The position numbers were made by a program, and so were the translations under genes. From the NCBI RefSeq assembly GCF_014837175.1, contig NZ_JACYFR010000003.1, positions 1-64,000 of the forward strand: a stretch of 64,000 bases of DNA, written 5' to 3'. The stretch is from Cellulomonas sp. JH27-2 (GTDB lineage Bacteria > Actinomycetota > Actinomycetes > Actinomycetales > Cellulomonadaceae). A model generated the notes under the pieces. The model was not told where the DNA came from and made no database searches. It saw nothing but the letters and a program-made list of their open reading frames with translations. Below are positions 38,873 through 41,860 of the stretch, in pieces (positions within the stretch are counted from its first letter, which is position 1; the number at the start of each line of letters is the position of its first letter).

Positions 38873-41860
38873 GTGACGAATCCCCAGTTCATCCCGCCGA
38901 TCAGCGCCGAGTCCGTCGCCCTCACGGCGGTCGAGCACACCCCCGCCGCTCCCGAGTTCGCCGACCGCCACATCGGCCCGCGTGGCACGGAGACGGCGCG
39001 CATGCTGGCCACGGTCGGGTACGAGTCCCTCGATGCGCTCGTCGATGCCGCCGTCCCCGCGAGCATCCGCACAGACGCCCCGCTGGACCTGCCCGCCGCC
39101 CGCTCCGAGGTCGAGGTCCTGGCCGCGCTGCGGGCGATCGCCGCCAGGAACCAGGTGCTGCGCCCGATGATCGGCCAGGGCTACTCCGACACGATCACGC
39201 CGGCCGTCATCCGCCGCAACGTGCTCGAGAGCCCGGCCTGGTACACCGCGTACACGCCCTACCAGCCGGAGATCAGCCAGGGTCGGCTCGAGGCGCTGCT
39301 CAACTTCCAGACCATGGTCACGGACCTGACCGGCCTGGACATCGCCAACGCCTCCCTGCTCGACGAGGCGACCGCCGTGGCCGAGGCCGTCGCGCTCATG
39401 TGGCGCGGCCAGCGCAACAAGGCCGGCACGGTCGTGCTCGACGACCAGCTCTTCGGCCAGTCGCTCGCCGTGACGCTGGGCCGCGCGCAGGCCATCGGGC
39501 TGCCGGTCGTGGTGGCGGACCTGAGCAAGGGGCTGCCCGACGTGGACGGCGACCTGATCGGCGTCGTCGTGCAGCAGGTCGCCGCGTCCGGCGAGGTGCG
39601 CGACCTCGCGCCGGTGATCGCCGCCGCGAAGGAGCGCGGCGCGCTCGTCACCGTCGCCGCCGACCTGCTCGCCCTCACGCTCCTGACGAGCCCCGGAACG
39701 CTGGGGGCCGACGTCTCCGTCGGCTCCGCCCAGCGATTCGGCGTCCCGCTGTTCGGCGGCGGCCCGCACGCCGCGTTCATGGCGGTTCGCTCCGGCCTCG
39801 AGCGGATGCTGCCCGGCCGGCTCGTCGGCGTGTCCGTCGACGCCGACGGCGCCCCCGCCTACCGCCTCGCGCTGCAGACCCGTGAGCAGCACATCCGCCG
39901 CGAGAAGGCGACCAGCAACATCTGCACCGCGCAGGCGCTGCTTGCCATCGTCGCGTCGATGTACGCCGTCTACCACGGCCCCGACGGCCTGCGTCAGATC
40001 GCCGAGCGCGTCCACGGCCTCGCGCGATCGCTCGCCAGCACCCTGGAAAGCCTGGGTGTCGTCGTCGAGCACGACGTCCACTTCGACACCGTCCGCACCG
40101 CGGTCCCCGGCCGTGCGCGCGCGGTCGTGGCGGCAGCCGTCGCCGAGGGCGTCAACGTCTGGGCGCCCGACGACGACCACGTGCAGATCGCGTGCGACGA
40201 GGTGACCACCGAGGCGACGATCACCGCGGTCCTGCGCGCGTTCATCCACGCGGGCGTGACGAGCGTCGAGGTCGCCCCCGACGGCCCGACCGACTACGCG
40301 TTCGTCCAGCGCGCCATCCAGGCCGTCGACCTGCCCGAGTGGGCCCTGCGCACCGACGCGTACATGACGCACCCCGTCTTCCACCTGCACCGCAGCGAGA
40401 CGGCGATGCTGCGCTACCTGCGCACGCTCTCCGACAAGGACCTGGCGCTCGACCGCACGATGATCCCGCTGGGCTCGTGCACCATGAAGCTCAACGCGAC
40501 GGTCGAGATGGAGCCCATCTCGTGGCCGGAGTTCGCGGGCATCCACCCGTACGCCCCCGCCGACCAGACGCAGGGCTACGCCGAGCTCGTCACGCAGCTG
40601 CAGGACTGGCTCGCGGAGATCACGGGCTACGCCGCGGTGTCGGTGCAGCCCAACGGCGGTTCGCAGGGCGAGTTCGCCGGTCTGCTGGCGATCAAGGCGT
40701 ACCACGAGAGCCACGGCGAGCACCGCGACGTCTGCCTCATCCCGGCCAGCGCGCACGGCACCAACGCGGCGTCGGCGGCGCTCGCGGGGATGCGCGTCGT
40801 GGTGGTCGCCACGGCCGACGACGGTGAGATCCTGCTCGACGACCTGCGCGCCAAGCTCGACCAGCACGGCCCGAGCGTCGCGGCGATCATGATCACCTAC
40901 CCGTCTACGCACGGCGTCTACGAGGAGCACGTGCGCGAGGTGTGCGACCTCGTACACAATGCCGGTGGCCAGGTGTACATCGACGGCGCCAACCTCAACG
41001 CGCTCGTCGGGCTGGCCAAGCCCGGCCAGTTCGGCGGCGACGTCAGCCACCTCAACCTGCACAAGACGTTCTGCATCCCGCACGGCGGCGGCGGTCCCGG
41101 TGTGGGCCCGGTCGCGGTGGCGGCCCACCTGGCGCCCTTCCTCCCGGGCGACCCGACCCCGGCTCACGCAGCGTCCGAGGAAGTGGTTGCCATAACGGCC
41201 ACTTCCTCGGACGCTCGGGTTGTGCCGGTCAGCGCTGCGCCGTGGGGGTCCGCGGGGATCCTGCCGATCTCCTGGGCGTACGTCGCGCTCATGGGTCCCG
41301 ACGGGCTCAAGGCTGCCACCGAGACCGCCGTGCTGGCCGCGAACTACCTGGCCACGCGCCTGCACGAGCACTTCCCCGTGCTCTACACCGGACCCGGCGG
41401 GCTCGTCGCGCACGAGTGCATCCTGGACCTGCGCGAGATCACCAAGGCGACCGGCGTCACGGCCGAGGACGTCGCCAAGCGCCTCATGGACTACGGGTTC
41501 CACGCGCCGACGCTCAGCTTCCCGGTGGCCGGGACGCTCATGGTCGAGCCCACCGAGTCCGAGGACCTGGGCGAGCTGGACCGGTTCGTCGACGCGTTGA
41601 TCGCCATCCGTGGCGAGATCGACCAGATCAGCGACGGCACGTGGACGGTCGAGGATTCCCCGCTGAGGGGTGCCCCGCACACGGCCGCGTCGGTATCGTC
41701 GGACTCCTGGGAGCACGCGTACGGCCGCGAGAAGGCCGCGTTCCCGCTGGCCAGCCTGCGGGCCGGGAAGTACTGGCCGCCCGTGCGTCGCATCGACGGC
41801 GCGCGCGGCGACCGCAACCTCGTCTGCTCGTGCCCGCCGGTCGAGGCGTTCGCGGAATGA
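38873..41860 (+). CDS. gcvP: Glycine dehydrogenase (decarboxylating), P protein
   Basis: 995 residues from GTG 38873 after GCGGAGCAGC; the earlier ATG at 38624 lies in the riboswitch. It decarboxylates glycine with PLP and hands the aminomethyl group to GcvH. Both halves are fused in one chain: [12 protein letters not shown] at the N-terminus, [16 protein letters not shown], and the PLP site [21 protein letters not shown] with K731. Residues about 767-782, just before [17 protein letters not shown], are encoded by a 47-bp palindromic element also found near map; it stays in frame and adds a short extra loop. Confidence 0.96.
41172..41218. repeat. 47-bp dispersed palindromic element (family A), copy inside gcvP
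   Basis: Fifteen-bp perfect arms begin CGTCCGAGGAAGTGG and end CCACTTCCTCGGACG, followed by CTCGG. Same length as, and 37 of 47 bases identical to, the intergenic copy at 15680-15726. It encodes the extra loop near residue 770 of GcvP. Confidence 0.8.

Follow-up and report, generated by a model that had tools for sequence, protein, structure and literature searches.

In this study, we analyzed a stretch of 64,000 nucleotides from Cellulomonas sp. JH27-2 (NCBI RefSeq assembly GCF_014837175.1, contig NZ_JACYFR010000003.1, positions 1 to 64,000; hereafter the window) and the palindromic element that lies inside its glycine dehydrogenase gene, gcvP. The element is probably one copy of a dispersed hairpin family of Cellulomonas, of the repetitive extragenic palindromic (REP) type, carried as a tolerated parasite. 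The repeat unit is 42 bp long and consists of CGTCCG, 30 variable bases that form covarying arms, and CGGACG. A first-pass annotation made from the sequence alone had pointed to 47-bp palindromes at 41172–41218 and 15680–15726. Both are found there, and they are identical at 37 of 47 bases (counted by eye). The conserved unit, however, measures 42 bp (41172–41213 and 15680–15721), and the last five bases belong to the flank. The gcvP copy does have perfect arms, but of 17 bp (41170–41186 and 41199–41215), not 15 bp.

The two window copies belong to a larger set. A covariance model detected 30 sites in JH27-2 at E 6.5e-11 or better (better strand), and the next match has an E value of 0.06; the model was built from 29 copies, and C1:497200 is the only one of the 30 sites outside the training set. 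A consensus pattern with up to three mismatches gave 27 distinct sites in the 3,730,023-base assembly and none in a reversed control. Within the window, the same pattern matched only the gcvP and 15680 places, with no match in 100 shuffles. The earlier suspicion of a small dispersed palindrome that can enter coding DNA without breaking the frame is supported, with many more copies than the two first noticed.

Anatomy, placement and spacing of the repeat unit

The ends of the element are nearly invariant. Among 29 aligned copies, CGTCCGA (columns 13–19) and CTCGGAC (columns 47–53) do not vary, and the final G is present in 28. The CGTC at one end, the terminal tetranucleotide of CGTC-tagged REPs, pairs with GACG at the other. 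The resulting stem of about 19 bp begins with a C-G pair and encloses a 4-base center, and its inner pairs vary yet mostly stay paired. In the alignment, 89.3% of stem cells are paired, and sliding the partner lowers this value from 89% to 28–41%. Changes on both sides occur in 37 cells versus 21.5 (sd 3.6) in shuffles, a number that none of 500 shuffles reached, and the covariation score also lies above all 500; of five covariation measures in all, two stay within the range of the shuffles. The same arm types turn up in different combinations from copy to copy (e.g., GAAGT facing CAACT), suggesting that halves may be swapped among copies.

In loci of JH27-2, G065, G069, G017 and G023 (genomes are designated by G numbers and loci by L numbers), a length of 42 bp is shared by 109 of the 111 palindromes that have the exact ends, although most of these loci were fetched by a 42-bp model, which favors that length. 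The same loci contain 15 further 42-bp stretches with the same ends and pairing below 70%. The bases flanking the 30 JH27-2 copies mirror each other, with CCCGCAR preferred to the left and YTGCGGG to the right; the two flanks do not covary. Direct repeats at the borders of these copies are no longer than those of shuffled pairs in seven registers, and no target-site duplication was seen. The predicted RNA folds of three single copies (gcvP on both strands, 15680, and L002) and two doublets are 5–12 sd below shuffles, with z-scores of −7.3 for gcvP on the plus strand, −6.1 for gcvP on the minus strand, and −5.0 for 15680. Among 60 strand readings of the JH27-2 copies, the frame is open in 60 at offset 1, in 59 at offset 2, and in 25 at offset 0. 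Since 42, 21, and 63 are all divisible by three, a single copy or a 63-bp pair keeps the reading frame.

Most copies are located after genes. A tally of 85 clusters from five genomes placed 50 between tandem genes, 30 between convergent genes, 5 inside ORFs, and none between divergent genes, based on a crude gene finder whose gene calls are imperfect. Reading of the translations indicates that the genic calls C1:152307 and C3:671700 are probably start extensions. Of the 80 intergenic clusters, 64 are within 40 bp of a stop codon, and in JH27-2 a believable gene end is present within 300 bp of 24 of the 30 copies.

In several genomes, the copies are often paired, one 62–63-bp step apart. Among 32 neighbors separated by 55–80 bp, the step is 63 bp in 20, 62 bp in 10, 61 bp in 1, and 73 bp in 1. 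An origin of these doublets by tandem duplication is unsupported for most of the 32, with spacers mostly unrelated to the flanks; agreement of spacer and flank is clear in one pair of L162 (15/21) and in L089 (18/20), and partial in L146 (11/21).

Coding copies, distribution and arm renewal

GcvP of JH27-2 is full-length (NCBIfam TIGR00461), and the element is in frame directly ahead of its PVSAAPWGS segment. The first-pass annotation had described an extra loop at residues 767–782 right before this segment; the place is correct, but the residue numbers depend on the start chosen, and the element lies near residue 850 when counted from the start of the longest ORF at 38624. GcvP is present in all 60 genus genomes searched. 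The text patterns used to read the loop missed 8 of 50 loci, and the 42 readable loops are 93–147 nt long. Among the 41 loops from relatives, none combines the two end words and none shows a palindrome of similar quality; their best 42-nt chance palindrome pairs at 14 of 20 positions compared with 16 of 20 in JH27-2. The JH27-2 loop of 141 nt becomes 99 nt when 42 is subtracted, as in the near relatives G044 and G070, and human glycine dehydrogenase is nine residues shorter at this loop. The variable loop length across the genus suggests that the element landed in a tolerant place.

The second coding copy of JH27-2 is located at C3:518169 in rsmA (TIGR00755), with the in-frame reading TSEQVAVIAAEGSDA. 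These two in-frame copies are natural cases of a dispersed repeat that adds a peptide to a glycine dehydrogenase and an rRNA methyltransferase. In addition, a loop of a YdiJ-like FAD and Fe-S oxidoreductase contains 42-nt stretches bearing the ends in G017, G073, G043, G065, and G021. G065 has two of them in frame and 63 bp apart, and the YdiJ-like gene of G004 lacks the stretch; the text patterns missed 2 of 11 loci of this gene. We call these copies decayed because of their pairing (11–14/20), and the case for them is made by the ends, the length, and the 63-bp step.

The family is patchily distributed. Covariance-model matches at E 1e-6 or better were found in 14 of 81 genus genomes, and the remaining 67 have none. 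In the first sample of relatives, 11 of 39 genomes matched at E 1e-3, including G028 and G030 from other families of the order. Searching for the end pattern with one mismatch gave 12 genomes with 39–95 sites (23 in G067, which is 61% complete), against a background of 1–26 sites per genome outside the carriers. This background is higher than the reversed control suggests, and therefore only the 12 outstanding genomes are called carriers; the count of 12 of 81 follows from our own cut-off, by which G009 and G045, with five and two model matches at E 1e-6, are labeled non-carriers. The carriers are JH27-2, G065, G069, G017, G023, G021, G043, G053, G068, G073, G087, and G067, while G044, G070, and G078 belong to the non-carriers. 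The analysis covered part of the copies in G017, G021, G023, G068, G073, and G067. A GcvP tree of 50 genomes contains 11 carriers, with carrier G087 outside it. They occupy three places: nine are within a clade of ten that includes the non-carrier G004, and JH27-2 and G067 are each isolated among non-carriers. The carrier state requires 4 changes on this tree versus a shuffled mean of 10.1, with 0 of 500 shuffles as low.

We compared JH27-2 with G044 at five aligned syntenic sites (gcvP and C3:127009, 133647, 306397, and 344416), and the element is absent from G044 at all of them. Divergence of the flanks at these empty sites prevents the insertions from being located to the exact base, and C3:194826, whose flank matches are 3 kb apart, was left out of the alignment. 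A different palindrome is present in G044 at the sites of 344416 and 127009. Absence in G044 means that the copies were gained after the split from G044 or lost in G044. Given their absence from the nearest sampled relatives, the compared copies were most likely gained in the JH27-2 lineage. At the second window copy, the map-like and M18-like genes overlap without a palindrome in G044, G070, and G078; two other relatives bearing the M18 gene are uninformative for this site. Near the place of JH27-2 C3:344416, the different palindrome of the non-carrier G044 is 56 bp long and located in G044:C3, at 46263–46318 in the joined coordinates of L297–L316.

Many sites are shared among the carriers. 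Of 76 gene 3′-end clusters at elements, 27 are common to at least two genomes, and two of these include JH27-2; they follow genes that we take to be map and a GH1-like gene. In flank comparisons, the target holds the element in 306 of 354 cases, which are redundant and not independent. Of the 48 rows scored as empty, 14 show a 42 or 45 target gap and thus had a query that was not a real element. Apparent true absence in a related species is seen at two loci (L231 versus L200 and L240 versus L210). At one locus, G065 (42 nt) and C. terrae (41 nt) have an element in the same place with the same ends and different arms (L122 and L209). Inner arms agree at 17.5–21.3 of 30 positions within genomes and at 12.9–18.1 between genomes. 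Orthologous loci agree best at 19.3 versus 18.3 for random loci, based on 29 orthologous pairs listed by hand. The contrast is clear in G065, where inherited places bear an arm type peculiar to that genome. We infer that positions persist and that some lineages have renewed the arms at them, which we read as a sign of exchange among the copies.

Stretches outside the carriers were also noted. G009 has related 43-bp palindromes, CGTGCGAGG...CCTCGCACG, at L079, L080, and L081, which apparently form a sister subfamily. Stretches in C. fimi SB and Pengzhenrongella frigida are paired at 17–19 of 20 positions and located after genes, and they may be members, although the search pattern imposed their ends and length. 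The same pattern imposed the ends and length of stretches in Streptomyces fragilis and in three Patescibacteria-type metagenome-assembled genomes (MAGs), which may be coincidence. In the three MAGs (L203:3784, L226:7572, and L232:6569), two titled Patescibacteria or Nomurabacteria and one titled uncultured bacterium, these stretches are the 42-bp palindromes CGTCCGAGYAAAAAATCGA...TCGATTTTTTRCTCGGACG. As to a plasmid or phage vehicle, which was rejected, one copy searched with its flanks had no match in plasmids and phages at E 0.01. Viral contigs contain 25 end-pattern stretches, of which one (L335) pairs at 16 of 20 positions and may be a member; this 42-bp stretch of an IMG/VR contig (L335:460–501) resembles an arm type of Root930.

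Interpretation and known relatives

We propose that the element is tolerated where it does little harm, i.e., just past stop codons and occasionally in variable protein loops. In a protein loop, a single unit of 42 bp (14 codons) or a pair of 105 bp (35 codons) preserves the frame, and two of the three frames are nearly always free of stops. Behind genes, the hairpin probably terminates or trims the transcripts arriving from either side, or else protects the 3′ ends of mRNAs. Spreading of the copies would not depend on a detectable REP-associated tyrosine transposase (RAYT), and they would enter genomes by transfer. In the main carrier clade, many sites would have been inherited, with arms renewed in some lineages either by conversion or by reinsertion alongside and loss of the old copy.

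Several results weigh against this proposal. Transposition lacks the support of a target-site duplication, and no mobilizing enzyme was found, with one transposase family tested. Two covariation measures are matched by shuffles: pairs with changes on both sides number 8 (mean 7.2, 203 of 500 shuffles as high), and further pair types number 19 (mean 17.0, 75 of 500 as high). The length bias of the fetched loci belongs here as well. As for placement, C2:728431 lies upstream of two divergent genes when the translations are read, contrary to the tally, and for 6 of the 30 JH27-2 copies, two of them the coding copies, no credible gene end could be identified within 300 bp. The stem is not followed by a T run in the 30 copies, whose right flank is YTGCGGG-like, and no terminator-like site was found at 15500–15900 of the window; without a T tract, simple intrinsic termination is not claimed. 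The JH27-2 rsmA loop is 198 nt long versus 150 nt in the three nearest relatives, G078, G044, and G070, an excess of 48 and not 42, and it is 162–186 nt long in three other relatives read (the text patterns missed 13 of 20 rsmA loci). The pairing of the YdiJ-like copies is no better than that of the best chance stretch in GcvP loops (14). JH27-2 itself has one pair at 63 bp and one at 73 bp, and other offsets occur, namely 40 bp in five abutting pairs sharing one CG and single cases of 65, 82, 102, and 139 bp. Arm renewal is mixed: agreement between G069 and G023 (18.1/30) is higher than within G069 (17.5), and these two genomes agree at 29 of 30 positions at two orthologous loci.

The hairpins might instead be host transcription terminators, alike through selection or gene conversion and not mobile. 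While their position after stop codons, their strength as hairpins, and the many positions inherited in the carrier clade (together with the redundant 306 of 354 comparisons) are as expected of terminators, the in-frame copies in gcvP and rsmA are not. Terminators need neither sequence-specific ends nor an exact length; moreover, the T tract is missing, and in 67 of 81 genus genomes the model finds nothing at E 1e-6. In 400 kb of one such matchless relative, palindromes of many lengths and sequences are found. We regard this explanation as unlikely.

A similarly unlikely explanation is a miniature inverted-repeat transposable element (MITE), a non-autonomous miniature whose parent insertion sequence would have CGTCCG as its terminal repeats. 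The patchy carriers, the sites empty in a relative, and the five abutting cases at a 40-bp offset that share one CG would fit such an element, but a target-site duplication is missing, and each unit is a single hairpin whose inner arms vary, not a body framed by constant terminal repeats. The scanned genes between element pairs are ordinary, in a scan that did not include a genome-wide search for a parent insertion sequence. The first-pass annotation had offered REP-like or MITE-like; of the two, MITE is the less apt description. Similarly unlikely are binding sites of a DNA-bridging or nucleoid protein, with half-sites at CGTCCG and the conserved flanks, for which 42, 63, and 21 bp would be 4, 6, and 2 helical turns of 10.5 bp. 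The 42-bp length, the 62–63-bp step, and the flanks CCCGCAR and YTGCGGG, conserved without covariation as protein contacts would be, speak for such sites. Against them, the inner arms covary, which suggests a folded strand; the step is 62 bp 10 times versus 63 bp 20 times; the abutting copies 40 bp apart do not keep the helical phase; and a host protein site would be unusual inside genes and with so patchy a distribution.

The preferred reading as a REP-type family is framed by published repeats. CGTC-tagged REPs were reported without a dedicated transposase by Di Nocera, De Gregorio and Rocco (2013; PMC3733652). Their stems are 8–9 bp long with A-T pairs first, a loop of 4–5 bases, and a CCA tail, the CGTC is unpaired at one end, and the hosts are mostly alpha-Proteobacteria; RPE-4 is equated with CGTC-4 and RPE-6 with CGTC-1. 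Like the Cellulomonas element, they are dispersed short palindromes with a CGTC end, frequent pairs, and some genic copies, and they lie mostly after genes, between tandem or convergent ORFs. In contrast to their unpaired one-end tag and short stem, the tags of the Cellulomonas element pair across one long stem of a 42-bp unit. The first-pass annotation knew of no such family in Cellulomonas; these REPs are published kin, although the main text of PMC3733652 mentions neither Cellulomonas nor Actinobacteria.

GTAG REPs and REPINs, including the "double foot" REPs (TnpAREP subclass 2.4) that possibly arose from a central deletion of an inverted pair (PMC6006769), similarly have an inverted tag at both hairpin ends and in-frame insertions. 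They differ in their tag, GTAG/GTGG versus CGTC, and in having a RAYT, none being detected here; in the sample of that paper, Actinobacteridae carry only subclass 1.1. Rickettsia palindromic elements also occur in frame within coding genes, as the Cellulomonas element does in gcvP and rsmA, but they are ~150 bp long and nearly half are genic (PMC10969869), versus 42 bp and 2 of 30 here, a comparison made by description only. SPRITE of Streptococcus pneumoniae resembles the present family in its 30 copies, its long stem (18 bp), and its enrichment near gene 3′ ends (PMC3049150), and differs in being AT-rich with a U-rich tract; in-frame genic copies and fixed pairing are not described in the available part of its report. 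PMC12306157 includes three Actinomycetota genomes, and Cellulomonas is not mentioned in the part of its text that was accessible. Searches of an open-access library gave no paper whose title or abstract start describes such repeats in Cellulomonas or Actinobacteria. The Cellulomonas unit is best seen as a double-foot form of a CGTC-tagged REP, and on the best reading its actinobacterial host, long stem of fixed length, 62–63-bp pairs, and in-place arm renewal are new compared with known REPs.

A RAYT was rejected as the mobilizer, the Y1/RAYT transposase (Y1_Tnp, PF01797) not being detected in the carriers JH27-2, G017, G021, and G023; PF01797 matched in 2 of 39 genomes, G003 and G038, both of which are non-carriers. 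A composite transposon was also rejected: the genes lying between element pairs ~1.1–1.7 kb apart in relatives are ordinary ones (Ppx-GppA, an AbiEi_4-domain protein, a class-V aminotransferase, and an aldehyde dehydrogenase), most of which are orthologous between genomes. A bolder and rather doubtful extension is that a RAYT-free copying process with a strict ruler (a 42-bp unit, a 20–21-bp spacer, and a 62–63-bp step) acts on double-ended CGTC hairpins, replaces arms in place at persisting positions so that a genome renews its set, and can write in-frame peptides of 14 or 35 residues into conserved enzymes. If true, the enzyme of this process would be the missing mobilizer of CGTC-type REPs. 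Because the family is sharply present or absent among related Cellulomonas, what copies these repeats can be tested by a comparison of gene content between carriers and non-carriers.

Other features of the window

The features discussed here are listed below. The genes on both sides of the second copy presumably encode a methionine aminopeptidase (14734–15672) and an M18-type aminopeptidase (15734–17002), as judged from their sequences.

Table 1. Coordinates of the element copies, their flanks, and adjacent genes in the window.
Feature	Position	Strand	Remarks
42-bp element inside gcvP	41172..41213		In frame; first and last codons shared with the flank
Left flank, CACGCAG, near the family flank CCCGCAR	41165..41171		Bases read; flanks of 30 copies
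Right flank, CTCGGGT, like the family flank YTGCGGG	41214..41220		Bases read; flanks of 30 copies
gcvP, glycine dehydrogenase	38624..41860	+	Longest ORF, start uncertain; TIGR00461, 1319 bits
Second copy, between convergent map-like and M18-like genes	15680..15721		7 bp past one stop codon, 12 bp from the other
map-like gene	14734..15672	+	3′ end bears the element also in carriers G017 and G065
M18-type aminopeptidase-like gene, convergent neighbor	15734..17002	-	Present in 6 of 81 genus genomes

Rfam gave no identity for the element. The only match at gcvP is a sub-threshold one to radC (17 bits, gathering 40), and matches in six other loci, including two microRNA models on the L074 element, are chance matches below threshold, apart from the Ms_IGR-5 match given below. 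Two more long palindromes of the window, at 9417–9486 and 23153–23220, have common words of 12–15 bases, GAGACAGACCCTT and AGGTCGATCTCGG, and possibly represent a second dispersed palindrome family; one of these words was unmatched in 316 fetched loci. The palindrome at 23153–23220 sits inside an ORF of 377 amino acids. Finally, in G017 the 5′ end of the map-like gene has an Rfam match to Ms_IGR-5, an actinobacterial small RNA, at L074:3990–4211, away from the element (69 bits, gathering 45).
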